A stretch of DNA of 44,665 nucleotides from Verrucomicrobiota bacterium (GTDB lineage: Bacteria; Verrucomicrobiota; Verrucomicrobiia; Limisphaerales; JAEYXS01). The notes under the pieces were generated by a model. That model saw nothing but the letters and a program-made list of their open reading frames with translations, did no database searches and was not told the origin of the DNA. Shown here piece after piece: positions 4,386 to 41,460 of the stretch. The stretch lies in NCBI GenBank assembly GCA_030834415.1, contig JAURFH010000003.1, positions 1-44,665 on the forward strand, given 5' to 3'. The position numbers were made by a program, and so were the translations under genes. How positions within the stretch are numbered: position 1 is the first letter of the stretch; every line of letters starts with the position of its first letter.

Positions 4386-5678
4386 ATGAAAAAACTTTTA
4401 TTGCCACTACTTGGAATCTGCCTGTCCGGGCTGTGTCTCCCCGCCGTTTTTGCAGAGGCTCCGACCACTTCCATCACCACCCTCATCACGGAAGCGGTGA
4501 AAGACAATCCTGAGATCCAATACTACCAAGCAGGGATAACCTCCGCCCAGGCTGGTCTGAAATCAGCCACTCAACTTGCCCAGCCGGAACTGAACGCCGA
4601 ATTGGGCTATAAACACTCTCGCGATAACACCGGCATAAGCGGTGATGGCGTCGCCTGGTCTGTCTCGGTGATGCAAACCTTTGAATGGCCTGGTCGCATG
4701 GGACTGCGCAAAGCCATTGCCAACTACGACATCACTCTCGCCGAACTGGGGCTGGCACAATTCCGCTCCGAACTCGCCAACCGGGTACGCCTGACCGCCT
4801 GGAATCTCTGGGCCGCCCGTCAAAAACTCGATACCGCCCGTACCGTTCAGCAACGTTTCAGCGACCTTCGCGATGTCTTGATCCAACGAGATCCCGCCGG
4901 CATCACCCCCGCCTTGGAACTCCGCGTGATCGAGGCCACCGAACTGATGCTGCGCAAGCGCGTCACCGATGCGGAAGTCACGTTACATTCCCTGCGCACA
5001 GAACTGAACCTGCTCCGGGGCAAACCGGCCGCTGAAGAGATCGCCATCGAAAACGCCGCGGTAGCCTTGCAGACATTGCCACCGCTGGGTGATCTCCTCG
5101 CTCAGGCACGTACCAATAATTTTGAGCTCCTGCTCAAACGCGCCGAACTGGTTCAACAAGGCTTCAAAGTCGATTTGGCCCGCAATGAACGCTACCCGGC
5201 CGTTTCCTTCGGCCCGGTCATGTCCGAGGAACATTCACTGGGTCGCGACCGCATCATCGGCATCGGTCTCACCATGCCGCTGCCCATCTGGCGACGTAAC
5301 GCCGCCAATGTGGACGCTGCCACCGCCCGACGCACCCAGGCAGAGGCCCTGCTGAATGTCACTGTCAGGGATATCGAGCAACGCTTGACGCGTTACTCCC
5401 AATCCTACGCGGCCAGATACGCCGAGATACATCTCTGGGCCGAGAACTCCATCACCGAGTTCGAGAAAGCTGCCGCGCAAGCGGACCGCCATTACCAGCT
5501 CGGAGCCGTCCCGGTCACGACCTATGTAGAGTTGCAGAAACAATACGTAGATGCAGTGGATTCCCTCTTGGACCTACAAGCTGAAGCGATGCAATCCGCC
5601 AGCGAACTGGAACGCGTGACCGGAGCCGAACTCCATCTGGTCAGCATCAAGTCCCCCGTGTCATCAACTCGCAAATAA
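4386..5678 (+). CDS. Outer-membrane efflux protein, TolC/CzcC family
   Basis: A 430-residue protein with a Sec signal (MKKLLLPLLGICLSGLCLPAVFAEA). Two similar halves of long amphipathic helices follow, as in TolC trimers: 'EAVKDNPEIQYYQAGITSAQAG' opens the first repeat and 'LLAQARTNNFELLLKRAELVQQG' the second. 'YTRY'-like helical stretches and a final 'YVELQKQYVDAVDSLLDLQAEA' helix complete the coiled barrel. In the family this is the outer-membrane duct that connects to an RND pump through an adaptor protein. It ends 9 bases before the pump gene, so the two are almost certainly cotranscribed. Length and repeat structure fit CzcC/CusC-type factors. No lipobox Cys is seen, so it is probably not a lipoprotein. 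Confidence 0.9.
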   Translation: MKKLLLPLLGICLSGLCLPAVFAEAPTTSITTLITEAVKDNPEIQYYQAGITSAQAGLKSATQLAQPELNAELGYKHSRDNTGISGDGVAWSVSVMQTFEWPGRMGLRKAIANYDITLAELGLAQFRSELANRVRLTAWNLWAARQKLDTARTVQQRFSDLRDVLIQRDPAGITPALELRVIEATELMLRKRVTDAEVTLHSLRTELNLLRGKPAAEEIAIENAAVALQTLPPLGDLLAQARTNNFELLLKRAELVQQGFKVDLARNERYPAVSFGPVMSEEHSLGRDRIIGIGLTMPLPIWRRNAANVDAATARRTQAEALLNVTVRDIEQRLTRYSQSYAARYAEIHLWAENSITEFEKAAAQADRHYQLGAVPVTTYVELQKQYVDAVDSLLDLQAEAMQSASELERVTGAELHLVSIKSPVSSTRK

Positions 5679-5687
5679 GGGAAGACC

Positions 5688-8600
5688 ATGATCGATCGCA
5701 TCCTAGAGTTTTCCCTGCGCCAGCGCGTTTTCGTGCTGCTGGCCACCGCAACATTGCTGGGCGTGGGCATCTACTATGCCCGCGAACTGCCCATCGACGC
5801 CGTACCGGACATCACCAGCCCACAAGTACAGGTCAACACGGAGGTAGATGTATTGGCTCCAGAGGAAGCGGAGAATCTGGTCACCCGGGTCATCGAGCAG
5901 GAACTGGCCGGTCTCCCGGGCGTCACTGATCTGCGTTCGCTGACCAAATACGGACTCTCCCAAGTGACTCTCCAGTTTGAAGATGGTGAGGATATCTACC
6001 GCAGCCGCCAGCTGGTTGCCGAGCGCCTGCAAAATATCCGCCAGCAACTCCCCGCTGGTGCCGAGCCACGGCTGGCGCCGATCAGCACCGGTTTGGGCGA
6101 GATCTTCTATTACACCCTGTCGTGGCAAAAGGGTGCCACCAACCGGCCTCCTGATGAATCCGAGTCCTTGATGCAGCTTTTCGAGGCCCAAGAATACGTG
6201 GCCAAGCCATTCCTGCGCAGCACACCGGGCGTCGCGGAAGTGAACGCCATCGGCGGTCTGGTCAGGCAGTACATCATTGAGCCTGATCCGGAGAAACTTT
6301 TCGCCGCCAACGTCACCTTTGAAGAACTGGCTGAGACCATCAGCCGAAATACCTCCAACGGTGGCGGTGGGATCATCAATCAAGACGGACGCAAGATGAT
6401 CGTCCGCTCCGTGAGCAAGGCCCAGACAGGTGAAGAGCTGGGCGCCCTGCCTGTGAAATTCGCTGGCGGTGTCCGTCCGGTTCTCGTCAAAGACCTGGCC
6501 GCAATACGCATCGGCGCCGCTCCGCGGATGGGTGCCGCCACCTCAAATGGCGAAGAAGCCGTCATCGGCTCGGTGATGATGCTCGCGGGCGAGAACAGCC
6601 GCGTGATCGCCCACCGCGTTCAACAACGTTTACAAACCCTGATCGAACGCCTGCCGCAAGGCATCACCGCCGAAGTGCAGTACGACCGCTCCGATCTCGT
6701 GGACCGCACGGTCGCCACAGTGAAGAAGAACCTGTTTGAGGGCGCCATCTTCGTCGTCGTGGTCCTCCTGTTGCTCTTGGGCAATGTTCGCGCGGCTCTC
6801 ATTGTCGCCGCCGCCATCCCGTTGAGTTTCCTCTGCGCCATCATCGGCATGAACCGCCTCGGCATCTCCGGCAATCTCATGAGTCTGGGTGCAGTGGACT
6901 TCGGTCTGATCATCGATGGTGCCGTGGTGATCGTGGAGAACATCGTCCGTCAGATGGCCCATCGACAGCAGCACTTGGGTCGCGCCCTCACTCATGAGGA
7001 ACGCATGCACACCGTCCTTTCGGCCAGCAAGCAGGTCGCCAGCCCCATGTTCTTCGGCGTCATCATCATCACCATTGTCTACGTGCCCATCCTCGCACTC
7101 ACCGGTGTCGAAGGTAAGATGTTCAAGCCCATGGCCGTCACGGTCATGCTCGCACTCGGTGGAGCGTTAGTCTTGGCGCTCACCCTGATGCCAGCGCTCT
7201 GCTCGTTTCTGCTGCGCGGCAAAGTAAGCGAGAGTGAGAATTTCCTGCTCCGCTTCGCCAAGCGCGTTTACGAGCCCACCTTGAACTGGGTGCTGCGGTG
7301 GCGCTGGCTGGTGTTCGGTGGTGCTTTGGCTCTGTTCCTATTTTCCGTGAACATCTTCAACCGTCTGGGTGCAGAGTTCTCGCCCAAACTCGACGAAGGT
7401 GCGACGACCATGATGCTCTACCGTCCCGTGGGGCAAAGTCTGGAAGCCTCCCTCGCCGCTCAAAAGCAGATCGATCATCTCATCCTGGAAAAATATCCAG
7501 AGGTATCCCGCGTGTTCTCCCGTATCGGCACCGCAGAGGTTGCGACCGACCCGATGGCTCCTAACGAAGCGGATTTCTACGTCTTCTACCATCCCACCAA
7601 AGAGTGGCAGCCGCGCAATGGCCGCGTTCCCACCAAACCCGAGCTGGCTGATATGATCGGCGAGACCATCAAGCAAGGCGCTTTTGAGTGCGATGTCATG
7701 GTCGCCCAGCCGATTGAGATGCGGTTCAACGAGATGTTGGAAGGCATTCGCGCCGATCTCGCCGTCAAAGTGTTCGGGCCAGATTTCGATGTACTCGAGA
7801 AAACCGCCGCCGAGATGAAGACCGTGCTCGAAGGTCTGCCCGGCGCTACCAGCGTGGAGTTTGAGACCGAAGGTCGCCCACCCATCCTTACTCTAGCAGT
7901 AAAACGGGATGAACTGGCCCGGCGCGGCATCAATAGTGACGCCGTGAACGCCGCCCTTGCGACTGCGGTTGCCGGCCAACCGGTCGGCACTCTTCAGCAT
8001 GGTTTGCGGATCCATGATGTCATCGTCCGTTTGCCCGGCGAATTGCGCGAACGAGTGGACCGCATCAAGGAACTTCCCGTCAGGGTGGGAGAATACGGTC
8101 TCTTGAAACTGGGCGATCTCGTCCAGTTCGAGACGATTGAAGCCGTGGAACCCATCCGCCGTGATGATGCCAAACGTCGTGCCGCTCTGATGGTCAATCT
8201 GCGCACCAAGGATATTGAAGGCTGGGTGCGCGATGCCCGCCGCCTCGTGAAGGAAAAGATCACCGTGCCAGATGGATACACCATCGAGTTCGGCGGCCAG
8301 TTTCAACGACTGGAAGCAGCTCGCGCCCGCCTCATGATTGTAGTCCCGGCTGCTCTCACCTTGATCTTCATCCTGATCTTCATGGCCTTCGGCAGTATCC
8401 GCCAAGCCGCCATCGTTTACACTGCTATCCCGCTAGCACTGACTGGCGGCATCTTTGCCTTGTGGTTTCGGGATATGCCCTTCAGCATCACTGCCGCCAT
8501 TGGTTTTATCGCCTTGAGCGGTGTCGCCGTTCTCAATGGTGTCGTTCTGGTCAGTTATTTTAATGAACTGCGCGAACAAACCAGTGATGACGTGAGGACT

Positions 8601-8840
8601 TCCGTGATTGAAGGATCACTGACCCGCCTACGTCCGGTCTTGATGACGGCGATGGTGGCCGCCTTGGGCTTCTTCCCCATGGCCATCAGCACCGGTGCAG
8701 GCGCCGAGGTCCAGCAACCGCTCGCGACCGTCGTCATCGGCGGCATTATCAGCAGCACCTTCCTCACCCTGATCGTCCTCCCCGCCCTTTATTGGACCGT
8801 GGAGCGTGAAAAAAACGCCCCCACCTCCACCAAGAACTAA
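5688..8840 (+). CDS. Heavy-metal RND efflux pump, CzcA type
   Basis: A 1050-residue inner-membrane proton-driven efflux pump. The layout is TM1 near residues 13-30, a large periplasmic loop, TM2-7 from about 340, a second loop, and TM8-12 near 870-1040. The TM4 signature 'DFGLIIDGAVVIVEN' gives D404, D410 and E417, the carboxylates typical of the HME-RND group that exports Co, Zn, Cd or Ni (CzcA-like), rather than the CusA pattern for Cu/Ag. A Shine-Dalgarno-like AAGGGA lies before the ATG. The gene follows the CzcC-like gene by 9 bases, and the next gene starts 11 bases after its stop. No CzcB/CusB adaptor gene is present, which is unusual for this operon type. The metal itself cannot be fixed from sequence reading. 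Confidence 0.93.
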   Translation: MIDRILEFSLRQRVFVLLATATLLGVGIYYARELPIDAVPDITSPQVQVNTEVDVLAPEEAENLVTRVIEQELAGLPGVTDLRSLTKYGLSQVTLQFEDGEDIYRSRQLVAERLQNIRQQLPAGAEPRLAPISTGLGEIFYYTLSWQKGATNRPPDESESLMQLFEAQEYVAKPFLRSTPGVAEVNAIGGLVRQYIIEPDPEKLFAANVTFEELAETISRNTSNGGGGIINQDGRKMIVRSVSKAQTGEELGALPVKFAGGVRPVLVKDLAAIRIGAAPRMGAATSNGEEAVIGSVMMLAGENSRVIAHRVQQRLQTLIERLPQGITAEVQYDRSDLVDRTVATVKKNLFEGAIFVVVVLLLLLGNVRAALIVAAAIPLSFLCAIIGMNRLGISGNLMSLGAVDFGLIIDGAVVIVENIVRQMAHRQQHLGRALTHEERMHTVLSASKQVASPMFFGVIIITIVYVPILALTGVEGKMFKPMAVTVMLALGGALVLALTLMPALCSFLLRGKVSESENFLLRFAKRVYEPTLNWVLRWRWLVFGGALALFLFSVNIFNRLGAEFSPKLDEGATTMMLYRPVGQSLEASLAAQKQIDHLILEKYPEVSRVFSRIGTAEVATDPMAPNEADFYVFYHPTKEWQPRNGRVPTKPELADMIGETIKQGAFECDVMVAQPIEMRFNEMLEGIRADLAVKVFGPDFDVLEKTAAEMKTVLEGLPGATSVEFETEGRPPILTLAVKRDELARRGINSDAVNAALATAVAGQPVGTLQHGLRIHDVIVRLPGELRERVDRIKELPVRVGEYGLLKLGDLVQFETIEAVEPIRRDDAKRRAALMVNLRTKDIEGWVRDARRLVKEKITVPDGYTIEFGGQFQRLEAARARLMIVVPAALTLIFILIFMAFGSIRQAAIVYTAIPLALTGGIFALWFRDMPFSITAAIGFIALSGVAVLNGVVLVSYFNELREQTSDDVRTSVIEGSLTRLRPVLMTAMVAALGFFPMAISTGAGAEVQQPLATVVIGGIISSTFLTLIVLPALYWTVEREKNAPTSTKN

Positions 8841-27660: not shown

Positions 27661-28134
27661 CTACTTAATCTCCGAACCCTGCTGCTTCTCCAGAATCTTA
27701 TCAATCGTCTTGTCCAACAGGTCGCGGTAGGTCTTCACGTCGAGGCAGCGGGTATCGGGTGTGCCTTTCACTTCGTAGAGCCAGCCGGTGCCGAAGGAGT
27801 CTTTGTGGATGAGATTGATCTTTTCCTTGAGCACGGGATTCACACCGAGGAATTCGCCTTCCGCGATGCAGTAGATGTCGGAGATGGCCTTGAACCCCTC
27901 CACCCAGCCGACGATCTGGCCGGGCTTCACGGCGGCACCGGGCTGCACTTCCCACCCGTGATCCACCATCTCACCGAGCATGCGCGTGGCGAACTTCGTG
28001 AGGCCGATGCGCCAGATGCCTTCGCGGTCGGTCTTCGCGATCCAGCAATGTGACGGGCTGTAGAGATACTCCACCGGCATGTGGGTCACGAAGTGTGACC
28101 GTTTGTAGTAGAGTTTGTCGGTGCCCGTATTCAT
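27661..28134 (-). CDS. GcvH-like lipoyl-carrier protein
   Basis: A 157-residue protein with the glycine-cleavage H fold. 'YLYSPSHCWIAKTDREGIWRIGLTKFATRMLG' is the usual N-terminal barrel, and 'VGWVEGFKAISDIYCIAEGEFLGVNP' is the lipoyl hairpin with K82 at the lipoylation position. 'FGTGWLYEVKG' ends the barrel. True GcvH carries the aminomethyl group between the P and T proteins; here gcvP and gcvT are not adjacent. The N-terminal 15 residues and C-terminal helical tail ('YRDLLDKTIDKILEKQ') extend the standard 125-130 residue length. It is divergent from a cysteine desulfurase gene with 154 bases between. A carrier function in another lipoate-dependent process is possible, as is a second gcvH. 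Confidence 0.85.
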   Translation of the reverse strand: MNTGTDKLYYKRSHFVTHMPVEYLYSPSHCWIAKTDREGIWRIGLTKFATRMLGEMVDHGWEVQPGAAVKPGQIVGWVEGFKAISDIYCIAEGEFLGVNPVLKEKINLIHKDSFGTGWLYEVKGTPDTRCLDVKTYRDLLDKTIDKILEKQQGSEIK

Positions 28135-28288: not shown

Positions 28289-29419
28289 GTGATCTACTTC
28301 GACCATAACGCGACGACACCTCTGAGCGCGACGGCCCGGGAAGCCTGGCTGCGCGCGAGCGAGGAGTTCATCGGCAATCCCTCGAGCCCACATCGCCTCG
28401 GCAGCCGTGCGGACCGGGCCTTGACGGAAGCGCGTGAGGAACTGGCGGCTATCCTGGGCTGCGATGCGTTGGATATCGTGTGGACCTCAGGCGCAACGGA
28501 GTCAAACAACCTGGTGCTGCATCACATCGCCCAGACTCTTCCGGAGTGTGCGGAGGTATGGGTATCTGCCATCGAGCATCCGTGTGTGCTGGCCGCTGCG
28601 CAGAAGTGGTTACCCGGAAGAGATAGCCTCATCCCGGTGACGCGCGAGGGCATGGTGGATAGTGGATGGATACGAAGCGAACTGGCCAAGACGCGCCCGG
28701 CACTCATCGCCATGATGGCGGCGAATAACGAAACCGGCATCCTGCAACCTTGGCGCGAAGTATCTGAGATGTGTCGCGATGCGGGCGTACCATTCTTTTG
28801 CGATGCCGCGCAGTGGCTGGGAAAATTGCCGGGCAAGGGTCTCGGTGAAGGCGATTTTGTCAGTGGATGCGCGCATAAGTTTGGCGGACCGAAGGGCGTC
28901 GGCTTCTTGAAATGCCCGGGCAAAGGGAAGGTTCATCCCTTGATCGTAGGCGGACCGCAAGAAGAGGAACGCCGCGCGGGCACGGAGAATGTGGCGGGCG
29001 TGATCGCGATGATGGCCGCGCTGCGCGAGCGCGAGGCAGCCCTGTCACGCGGCGAGCATATCGCATTGCATAATGCCAAGTTGGCGTTTGAAGCAGAGCT
29101 GCTGAAAGCCTTGCCGGGCAGTGAAATCGTCGGCGCAGGACAGGAAAGGCTCTGGAATACGGTCTCAGCACTGATGCCAGAGGCGGATTGCCAGCAGCGC
29201 TGGGTGGTGAAATTGGATAAAGCTGGTTTTGCAGTATCCACGGGGTCGGCGTGTTCGAGCGGAAAGGAGGTAGCCTCTCATGTCCTGACTGCACAAGGCT
29301 ACGGGCCGTCCGCCTCTAGCCGCGCTTTGCGTTTTAGCGGCGGCTGGGAAACTTCTCCAGAGGCTTGGAAAGCACTGAATGTCGCTCTGGGATTAGTCCA
29401 TTCCGGGATGAAATCTTGA
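28289..29419 (+). CDS. Cysteine desulfurase, NifS/IscS family
   Basis: A 376-residue PLP enzyme (GTG start) that takes sulfur from cysteine to form a protein persulfide for Fe-S clusters or thio-cofactors. Visible motifs: 'YFDHNATTPLS' at the start, 'WTSGATESNNLVL' (phosphate binding), 'AIEHPCVL', 'AANNETGILQP', K197 in 'SGCAHKFGGPKGVG' as the PLP-binding Lys, 'RAGTENVAGVIAM', and C322 in 'STGSACSSGKEVASHVL' as the sulfur-carrying Cys. The short Cys loop and overall length fit the NifS/IscS group rather than SufS. No iscU, iscA or thiI gene is next to it. The divergent GcvH-like gene is interesting because lipoyl synthesis also needs sulfur, but a direct link is inference. Confidence 0.93.
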   Translation: MIYFDHNATTPLSATAREAWLRASEEFIGNPSSPHRLGSRADRALTEAREELAAILGCDALDIVWTSGATESNNLVLHHIAQTLPECAEVWVSAIEHPCVLAAAQKWLPGRDSLIPVTREGMVDSGWIRSELAKTRPALIAMMAANNETGILQPWREVSEMCRDAGVPFFCDAAQWLGKLPGKGLGEGDFVSGCAHKFGGPKGVGFLKCPGKGKVHPLIVGGPQEEERRAGTENVAGVIAMMAALREREAALSRGEHIALHNAKLAFEAELLKALPGSEIVGAGQERLWNTVSALMPEADCQQRWVVKLDKAGFAVSTGSACSSGKEVASHVLTAQGYGPSASSRALRFSGGWETSPEAWKALNVALGLVHSGMKS

Positions 29420-37028: not shown

Positions 37029-37358
37029 TCAGCCTTTTTTCTGGTCGAACTGGAAGGAGCAGCAGCCGAGGTCGAGGCAGGTCTTGTCCGATGACATGCG
37101 GCGGCGGAAGTCAGGTGTCACCGTGTATTCATGCACCCGGCCCTGTATGTTTTGCTCCACCAAACCGGCCTCCCGCAGGATGCGCAGGTGCTTGGAGGCA
37201 TTGTATTGCGTCAGGGATAGTTCCGTTGCCACTGCCCCCACGCTGAGCGGCTGCCGCATGAGCAGGCGCACGATGGCAAAGCGCGTTTCATCCGCCAGCG
37301 CCTTGAGCCAAGGCACGCAATCACTGGAACTGGTTTTGCCGGAGTTATCCTTACCCAC
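37029..37358 (-). CDS. ArsR-family repressor with Cys-rich tail
   Basis: A 109-residue winged-helix regulator (GTG start). 'LKALADETRFAIVRLLMRQPLSVGAVATELSLTQYNASKHLRILREAGLV' is the ArsR helix-turn-helix, followed by the wing 'QGRVHEYTVTPDF'. The C-terminal tail 'KTCLDLGCCSFQFD' has C94, C99 and C100, and C14 lies at the N-terminus, so a thiol metal site or redox switch is possible. The known alpha3 CxC site (ELCVCDL) is absent. It is divergent from a COG0523 metallochaperone GTPase across about 110 bases, which suggests control of that gene in response to a metal. Its mRNA end is convergent with the exported unknown protein. Confidence 0.9.
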   Translation of the reverse strand: MGKDNSGKTSSSDCVPWLKALADETRFAIVRLLMRQPLSVGAVATELSLTQYNASKHLRILREAGLVEQNIQGRVHEYTVTPDFRRRMSSDKTCLDLGCCSFQFDQKKG

Positions 37359-37402
37359 GCGCTGAGGTTAAACATTTTTCCGCGCCGAAGCAAATAGGTT
37401 GG

Positions 37403-37431
37403 TTGAATCTGTATCCTCAGTGAATTAGACT
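37403..37431 (+). promoter_or_regulatory. Possible promoter of the COG0523 GTPase gene
   Basis: TTGAAT and TAGACT are spaced by 17 bases, each four of six to consensus, about 38 bases before ATG 37469 in the divergent region shared with the ArsR gene. No clear ArsR-type inverted repeat overlaps it. Confidence 0.3.
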
Positions 37432-37468
37432 GGTAGCAAGTCCGTCAGACAGCTTTGTTTTGAATATT

Positions 37469-38608
37469 ATGGAAACCACTTCAACCGCTCCCGCGCTCAA
37501 GGCACGTTACATCATGATCGGCGGCTTTCTCGGGGCCGGGAAGACCACTTCGGTGCTCAAGCTGGCGCACTGGCTGGACGATAATCTGGGACTACGGGTG
37601 GGGCTGATCGACAACGACCAAGGCAGCCAACTGGTGGATACGGCCTTGCTCGCCTCGCAAGATTTTGAAGTGGAAGAGATCTCGGGCGGATGTTTCTGCT
37701 GCCGGTTCAATTCACTGGTGGAGGCGGCGAACCGCCTGACCGAGCGCACTTTACCGGAGGTTTTCATCGCGGAACCGGTGGGCAGTTGCACCGACCTGGT
37801 AGCCACCGTCACGTATCCGCTGCGCCGCATGTATGGCGAGGATTACACCATCGCCCCGCTCAGTGTGCTAGTGGACCCCATCCGGGCAGCGCGTGTGCTC
37901 GGCCTGGAGCAAGGCAGCCGCTTCTCGGAGAAGGTGGAGTATATCTACCGCAAGCAACTGGAAGAGGCGGACATCATCGTCATCAACAAGAGCGACCTAC
38001 TCTCCCCGGAGAAGCTGGATGTATTGAGCAAAACCCTGGCGGAAAAGTATCCCCTGGCCAAGGTCATGATGATCTCTGCGCGCACGGGAGAAGGACTGGA
38101 AGAATGGTTCAAGGAACTGACGGAGACCACCCAGACACCTCGCGCGGTGATGAGCGTGGACTATGAAGTGTATGCGGATGGGGAAGCGCTCTTGGGCTGG
38201 CTGAATGCCGCCTACACGTTGAAGACCAAGACCGGGGTGGATGCTAACGAATTGCTGCGGCAACTGGCCGAGACAGTGCGCCGGAAACTCATCACGGCCG
38301 GAGGCGAAGTGGCGCATTTCAAGATGACGCTGGAACCGGAGGATGGTCTGGGTGAACTGGCGGTGCTGAATCTGGTACGGAATGATTACGTGCCGGAACT
38401 TTCTATGGAACTGGAGGAGCCGTTCACGGATGCGCACCTGACCATCAATATGCGAGCGGAAGCAGCACCTGAAGCCTTACAATCACTACTGGCCGAAGCG
38501 GTGGCAGAGACATTGGCAGGATTTGCGGGACTGACGAGCACGCAGGAACATCTCGAAGCGTTCCGTCCTGGCAAGCCGCAGCCCACGCACCGGGATACGA
38601 CGATTTAG
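37469..38608 (+). CDS. COG0523/CobW-family GTP-binding metallochaperone
   Basis: A 379-residue cytosolic GTPase from ATG 37469 (the track uses TTG 37460). Walker A is 'GGFLGAGKTTSVL', the metal-binding CxCC motif lies in 'EISGGCFCCRFNSL', Walker B/switch is 'FIAEPVGSCTDL', and the guanine-specificity motif is 'VINKSDLL'. COG0523 proteins insert or deliver Zn, Co, Ni or Fe to client enzymes. The C-terminal half has no long His-rich tail and instead contains 'HLTINMRAEAAPEALQSLLAEAV', longer than in YjiA. The divergent ArsR-type gene suggests metal-dependent expression. The particular metal and client are unknown; nearby enzyme genes offer no obvious client. Confidence 0.92.
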   Translation: METTSTAPALKARYIMIGGFLGAGKTTSVLKLAHWLDDNLGLRVGLIDNDQGSQLVDTALLASQDFEVEEISGGCFCCRFNSLVEAANRLTERTLPEVFIAEPVGSCTDLVATVTYPLRRMYGEDYTIAPLSVLVDPIRAARVLGLEQGSRFSEKVEYIYRKQLEEADIIVINKSDLLSPEKLDVLSKTLAEKYPLAKVMMISARTGEGLEEWFKELTETTQTPRAVMSVDYEVYADGEALLGWLNAAYTLKTKTGVDANELLRQLAETVRRKLITAGGEVAHFKMTLEPEDGLGELAVLNLVRNDYVPELSMELEEPFTDAHLTINMRAEAAPEALQSLLAEAVAETLAGFAGLTSTQEHLEAFRPGKPQPTHRDTTI

Positions 38609-40941: not shown

Positions 40942-41460
40942 GTGGCGAAGAAAAAGCTCAAACCCATGACGACTGAAACCTCCGTCGATGCCTCCCGGGT
41001 GGAGGTGCGCAAGTCTGGCATCCATGACACCGGCTGCTTTGCCGCCTGCGACATCCGCAAGGGTGAACGCGTGATCGAATACGTCGGCCCCCTCCTCAGC
41101 AAGGCCGAGTCCCTGAACCAGTGCGAGAGCGGCAATGTCTATGTGTTCACCTTGAACGATAAGCATGACATCAACGGCAACGTAGAGTGGAACCCCGCCC
41201 GCTTCATCAACCACAGTTGCGAGCCGAACTGTGAATCAGAGAATGATGATGAGCACATCTGGATTCTGGCCATCAAGGATATCAAGGCCGGGGAGGAGCT
41301 GACTTACAACTACGGCTTTGATCTGGAAGAATACAAGGACTACCCCTGCAACTGCGGTGCCGCGAGCTGTGTGGGTTACATGGTCGCCGTGGAATACTTC
41401 GACCACGCCCGCAAATATCGTGAGCTGCAACGCCAGACCGCAGCGGAAGTGACGGCCTGA
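40942..41460 (+). CDS. Bacterial SET-domain protein lysine methyltransferase
   Basis: A 172-residue protein (GTG 40942; ATG 40966 is an alternative that removes eight mostly Lys residues). The SET core is complete: 'VRKSGIHDTGCFAACDIRKGERVIEYVG' (SAM-binding start), 'ARFINHSCEPNCE' (the N-H-S-C-x-P-N-C motif, N90-C97) and 'AGEELTYNYGFD' with the catalytic Tyr (Y122). A post-SET zinc triad follows, C136, C138 and C143 in 'YPCNCGAASCVGYM', which with C97 would bind zinc. In eukaryotes this fold methylates histone lysines. Bacterial members modify host histones or the cell's own proteins; no histone-like gene is adjacent, so the target is unknown. It lies 77 bases after the esterase gene. Confidence 0.93.
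   Translation: MAKKKLKPMTTETSVDASRVEVRKSGIHDTGCFAACDIRKGERVIEYVGPLLSKAESLNQCESGNVYVFTLNDKHDINGNVEWNPARFINHSCEPNCESENDDEHIWILAIKDIKAGEELTYNYGFDLEEYKDYPCNCGAASCVGYMVAVEYFDHARKYRELQRQTAAEVTA

Follow-up and report, generated by a model that had tools for sequence, protein, structure and literature searches.

A divergent ArsR-family repressor and COG0523 GTPase in a Verrucomicrobiota bacterium, with a conserved Cys14/Cys99/Cys100 set as a candidate site for trivalent arsenic

The analysed stretch of DNA, referred to as the window, is 44,665 nucleotides long and comes from a Verrucomicrobiota bacterium. The gene pair considered here consists of an ArsR/SmtB-family winged-helix repressor of 109 aa on the reverse strand (37029–37358, GTG start at 37358) and a COG0523 G3E GTPase of 379 aa on the forward strand (37469–38608). 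These identities are directly established, and the divergent arrangement over 110 bases, as described in the first-pass annotation, is borne out by the open reading frames, the Pfam matches and the GTPase start. For the GTPase, ATG 37469 is the likely start, as the METT that follows from it is shared with a sister species (G436); an alternative TTG lies at 37460. The GTG start of the repressor is also kept in the sister species, where it appears as GTGGGTAAGG in an alignment of the intergenic regions, and the divergent pair itself recurs there (locus L074). The intergenic region (37359–37468) is presumed to hold the promoters and operator, and it shares conserved blocks with the sister species, which read TAATTCA, AGATTCAACC and TATTTGC on the ArsR strand. 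No sigma-70 consensus was found in 37359–37468, and a search for palindromes by expectation maximization across 45 upstream regions gave an 18-mer with a log-likelihood of 75 (60–67 for shuffled sequences), which establishes no operator. Elsewhere in the window, two features were noted by eye: a TolC-like outer-membrane protein and, immediately after it, a CzcA/CusA-like RND pump, the pair lacking an intervening membrane-fusion protein gene (4386–8840), and a small protein that resembles SET-domain proteins and ends in a post-SET-like stretch rich in cysteine (40942–41460).

The repressor belongs to the ArsR/SmtB family by NCBIfam model NF033788 (71 bits, cut-off 55), matches PF01022 (HTH_5, 45 bits) and PF12840 (HTH_20, 53 bits), and has HlyU and CzrA as its best fold matches, with SmtB also among them. 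An AlphaFold2 monomer (pLDDT 85, built from a 43-row alignment) has the usual ArsR core and is modelled without an alpha5 helix after the wing. Instead, the tail is predicted to form a short hairpin (strands 94–96 and 101–103) with the vicinal cysteines in the turn, the pLDDT of residues 91–100 being about 82. The protein contains only four cysteines, C14, C94, C99 and C100, and none between residues 15 and 93, so that alpha3 has no cysteine and the earlier statement that the classical CxC site is missing from this helix was correct. The codon for Cys14 (37317–37319, reverse strand) falls at the start of alpha1, which spans residues 11–21 in the model; that for Cys94, the first cysteine of CLDLGCC, lies at 37077–37079 (reverse strand); and those for the vicinal pair of the LDLGCC tail lie at 37059–37064 (reverse strand; Cys99 37062–37064, Cys100 37059–37061).

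Relatives of the repressor were gathered from the window's phylum and order (within the order, 36 of 196 genomes encode one), and 45 Verrucomicrobiota family loci were compared. Cys99 and Cys100 are present in 45/45 loci, a count somewhat biased towards the tail since members were found by whole-protein similarity. One similarity match, L014, lacks the tail, and a single-sequence scan of genome contigs returned only ArsRs without it. Mean column identity in the 43-row alignment is about 44%, and the only invariant residues besides C99 and C100 are R26, S55 and H57; at this level of divergence, invariance of the pair indicates more than chance conservation. Cys14, the third conserved thiol, is present in 44/45, the sole exception being L071, which has Trp at this position and keeps the CC, as does L012 from outside the 45-locus set. 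Cys94, by contrast with the pair, is found in only 3/45 (the window, the same-genus L074, and L076), and a cysteine at position 78 occurs in 14/45. Outside Verrucomicrobiota, the type is represented by two cyanobacterial plasmid records, both of which encode ArsRs with an N-terminal Cys and LGCC, the same cysteine set. The conserved thiols are thus C14, C99 and C100, with C94 excluded. The first-pass annotation had proposed a triple-Cys tail plus C14 as a non-standard sensing site and had asked for the tail's conservation in homologs to be checked. The vicinal pair and C14 passed this check and C94 did not, so the triple-Cys tail is not supported as the site; the idea of a non-standard site stands. 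Judging from conservation in the alignment, the sensor site is likely C14 plus the vicinal C99–C100 pair.

The GTPase matches PF02492 with 88 bits (cut-off 20.7) and carries GGCFCC, with the CxCC metal-site motif, at 37691–37702, the combination that defines COG0523. Across 38 aligned COG0523 rows the CxCC, C110, H286, H364 and H377 (numbered from the TTG) are invariant. The protein falls well below the equivalog cut-offs for ZigA (45 of 600 bits) and CobW (53 of 332 bits), Pfam reports no CobW_C domain in it, and it has no His-rich stretch. A reading as a Zn-type COG0523 protein was dropped on these equivalog scores and on gene context. Close relatives occur in 91/196 genomes of the window's order. 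Its own genome, a draft of 473 contigs, yields no close COG0523 match besides the window gene, the other PF02492 matches being a 221-aa protein (of the UreG/HypB kind by its length) and a short weak match.

Among 30 COG0523 loci, most share a conserved operon of genes for a GcvH-like protein, the COG0523 GTPase, a CxC protein of about 130 aa (X130) and a 4Fe-4S protein; the gene for a NifS-like desulfurase is divergent from this operon. X130 has no Pfam or NCBIfam match and may resemble the N-terminal part of HdrA. The NifS-like/GcvH-like/COG0523/X130/4Fe-4S module recurs in the window's order (L074:5368–8507, L114, L115, L121 and L123), and it is only loosely similar to lipoate-binding-protein/Hdr-like sulfur oxidation. 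In the window, the GcvH-like H-protein (27661–28134, reverse strand; PF01597, 68 bits; lipoylation-type motif EGFKA) and the divergent NifS-like cysteine desulfurase (28289–29419, forward strand; PF00266, nearest model TIGR03402 NifS) are located 8 kb from the COG0523 gene. In the sister species, genes for X130, a 4Fe-4S protein and a DUF116/polyprenyl-synthetase fusion lie directly beyond the COG0523/ArsR pair. Most of the genomes with ArsR-linked COG0523 genes still have GcvH-like and X130 genes elsewhere. In the COG0523 tree, the members linked to ArsR or aquaporin genes form two separate clades nested among the copies from GcvH operons, and ArsR-linked GTPase genes are thus directly seen in more than one lineage. 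The COG0523-linked ArsRs are likewise found in several branches of the ArsR tree, in which many deep forks are weak. Together, the two clades and the several ArsR branches indicate that the linkage was gained more than once or lost repeatedly.

The neighbours of the ArsR family were counted within 3.5 kb of the ArsR gene at the 45 loci. COG0523 genes were present in 11/45 loci and within 1 kb, adjacent or one gene away, in 10, so the pairing in the window is a real and recurrent one. The other recurrent neighbours were PiT-family anion transporters (9/45), Pst-type ABC genes (8/45), aquaporins (6/45) and ArsC-like proteins (2/45). Of the 45 loci, 28 have one or more of COG0523, PiT, Pst and aquaporin nearby, and the remaining 17, some of which are near contig ends, have none. 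Beyond 3 kb, 356 kb of flanking sequence held no PiT, PstS or aquaporin gene at all and COG0523 twice. One locus, L060, has the order ArsR, ArsC-like, COG0523, aquaporin. The ArsC-like proteins carry the motif CTHNSRRS and have arsC_pI258 as their nearest NCBIfam model; their scores fall far short of the cut-off for arsenate reductase, and they appear to start with signal peptides. The one PiT protein tested falls under the curated cut-offs of both the PitA (phosphate) and CysP (sulfate) models. In 3/45 loci a rhodanese gene is next to PiT or Pst genes; a role for it as arsenate reductase was considered and dropped, as its loop is CGTSREGS rather than CX5R. An apparently secreted protein family also adjoins this ArsR type in five loci (L051, L065, L066, L089 and L091).

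Both cyanobacterial plasmid ArsR genes directly precede pstS, which is followed by other pst genes. Arsenic clusters of cyanobacteria have been described in which an ArsR gene is upstream of PstS (PMC4284471), and PMC3834237 cites control of pstS1 and phoU in Agrobacterium by an ArsR that depends on As(III). The PiT, Pst, aquaporin and ArsC-like context, taken with these published ArsR–PstS links, speaks for arsenic rather than for Zn, Co, Ni or Cd, the metals that the first-pass annotation had put forward for testing. Control by those metals finds no support in the family neighbourhoods, which consist of PiT or Pst, aquaporin, ArsC-like and COG0523 genes with no recurrent metal P-type ATPase, CDF or Znu-type system. 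The context as a whole favours arsenic/phosphate chemistry rather than Zn/Co/Ni and is not decisive, since the PiT protein reaches neither the PitA nor the CysP cut-off and the rhodaneses and the NifS-like partner leave room for a sulfur signal.

Three conserved thiols, the lack of a His/Asp site and the arsenic/phosphate neighbours together suggest that trivalent arsenic is bound by Cys14, Cys99 and Cys100. In our preferred reading, which we hold to be just about probable, the repressor uses three thiols for As(III)-type derepression of the COG0523 GTPase, which in turn serves a damaged metal/sulfur client. We infer the DNA binding, the ligand, the geometry of its site and the function of the GTPase from sequence and gene context. 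A repressor dimer would bind the shared 110-base region and repress both its own gene and the COG0523 gene. The ligand would be soft and thiol-seeking, with trivalent arsenic the most likely one and Sb(III) or a methylarsenical as further possibilities. Held by Cys14 and the vicinal pair, it would link the beginning of alpha1 with the C-terminal tail, and the DNA would be released. The induced GTPase, with its CxCC metal site, might then restore or protect a metal/sulfur client hurt by the toxicant, the best candidate being the GcvH/NifS/4Fe-4S module that usually accompanies it. The lipoyl-type GcvH-like protein and the Fe-S protein of this module would be natural targets of arsenite, given general dithiol and Fe-S chemistry. 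In known ArsRs, release by As(III) needs three cysteines and two suffice for methylarsenite (PMC11868830); by analogy, L071, with the CC and without C14, may be of the methylarsenite-responsive kind. A wider proposal is possible and considerably more doubtful: that a new ArsR type, with an alpha1 Cys and a C-terminal CC and spread over Verrucomicrobiota and Cyanobacteria, controls an arsenic-responsive set of COG0523 and a GcvH-like/NifS/4Fe-4S/DUF116 module serving an arsenic-poisoned lipoyl/Fe-S system.

Against an arsenic ligand, the window itself contains no ars gene, and a classical ArsR in the same genome means that arsenic sensing would be duplicated. This second ArsR is on contig C66 (L145:2219–3775), has an LCVCHF alpha3 site and is followed by aquaporin and DUF6428 genes; the locus is probably the genome's ordinary arsenic locus. 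On contig C2 (L149:1194–4335), a further ArsR gene is transcribed divergently from genes for a rhodanese, a TauE-like protein and an MBL-fold protein, and the locus has the look of one for persulfide response. Contig C374 (L147:4772–7043) has a double-domain rhodanese, apparently with a signal peptide, and after it a transporter of the PiT family; this pair adjoins a small regulator with a LysR-type HTH (ModE-like), and rhodanese pairing with PiT or Pst recurs beside the ArsR family. The ArsRs of contigs C66 and C2 weaken, without removing, the argument that the window ArsR senses arsenic. Also counting against arsenic are the low scores of the ArsC-like proteins, the absence of C14 from L071 and L012, and the 17 loci that have none of the transporter or GTPase neighbours.

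The same three thiols could instead sense sulfur or redox state, with disulfide or polysulfide links between C14 and C99/C100 releasing the DNA and the GTPase acting for Fe-S or lipoyl proteins. We consider this unlikely. It would account for the NifS-like desulfurase, GcvH-like H-protein and 4Fe-4S protein of the partner module and for the rhodanese genes beside PiT or PstS in three family loci, and some PiT-family proteins carry sulfate; however, Pst operons, aquaporins and ArsC-like proteins would not be expected. BigR-type models do appear among the weak matches of the family, but the BigR score is 35 against a cut-off of 155, and the contig C2 ArsR, with its MBL-fold, TauE-like and rhodanese neighbours, is a better fit for such a role. 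Sensing of a soft divalent metal (Cd, Pb, Zn or Co) by these thiols, with control of a metal-delivery GTPase as in the first-pass annotation, seems rather unlikely. Several COG0523 proteins function in Zn or Co homeostasis (PMC7689651; PMC2770081), and the better NCBIfam matches of the repressor include CmtR (Cd/Pb), at 42 bits against a cut-off of 150. However, no metal-efflux or metal-uptake system is recurrent beside the family, the tail lacks the conserved His/Asp/Glu set of alpha5 Zn/Co/Ni sites, and the GTPase has neither a His-rich stretch nor a score near the ZigA and CobW equivalogs. That the genes are chance neighbours, with the ArsR regulating only its own gene, is quite improbable: most family ArsRs have no COG0523 gene beside them, and the COG0523 relatives of the order mostly lie away from this ArsR type, but the two are within 1 kb in 10/45 loci and linked in at least two COG0523 clades and several ArsR branches.

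If the preferred reading, an arsenic-responsive derepressor, is right, the repressor would bring a further cysteine arrangement, common to two phyla, to the few As(III)-type ArsR sites that experiments have defined, and it offers a testable lead for a COG0523 subfamily without an assigned metal or client. Should the GTPase be under ArsR control, whatever induces the ArsR would reveal the stress that the GTPase answers. Neither the cysteine arrangement nor the recurrent pairing with this COG0523 subfamily was found in the literature searched. In particular, a search of open-licence literature found no paper linking COG0523 or CobW to an arsenic operon, and Haas 2009 is silent on both ArsR and arsenic.

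Type 1 As(III) repressors (R773) use Cys32, Cys34 and Cys37 in the DNA-binding domain, a triad that the window ArsR lacks. SmtB, CzrA and NmtR use Asp, His and Glu residues on alpha5, whereas the window ArsR has no alpha5 in its AlphaFold2 model and no conserved His in its tail. CgArsR (type 3) has N-terminal Cys15 and Cys16, close to where Cys14 of the window ArsR lies, and takes its third ligand, Cys55, from the other subunit; the window ArsR differs in having a single Cys14, no cysteine near 55 and a C-terminal CC. ArArsR (Arsenicibacter), the newest type found, likewise has a non-standard set outside the alpha3 triad and is part of an ars operon; its Cys41, Cys80 and Cys82 are absent from the window ArsR, and its own Cys107–Cys108 pair is dispensable for sensing. 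The As(III)/MAs(III) repressors AfArsR (type 2) and SpArsR also have a vicinal Cys pair near the C-terminus (PMC11868830). In AfArsR the site is completed by Cys102 on the C-terminal helix, whereas the window ArsR has no cysteine past C100, its tail is predicted to be a beta-hairpin, and its third conserved thiol is Cys14 in alpha1. With the cyanobacterial arsenic clusters, in which ArsR is directly upstream of pstS, the likeness is one of gene order; unlike in the window family, linkage to COG0523 is unreported there. The GTPase shares PF02492, the P-loop and GGCxCC with the COG0523 G3E proteins CobW, YeiR, ZigA, ZagA and Nha3, and it differs from this set in its operon partners, which are GcvH-like, NifS-like and 4Fe-4S proteins or ArsR and aquaporin.
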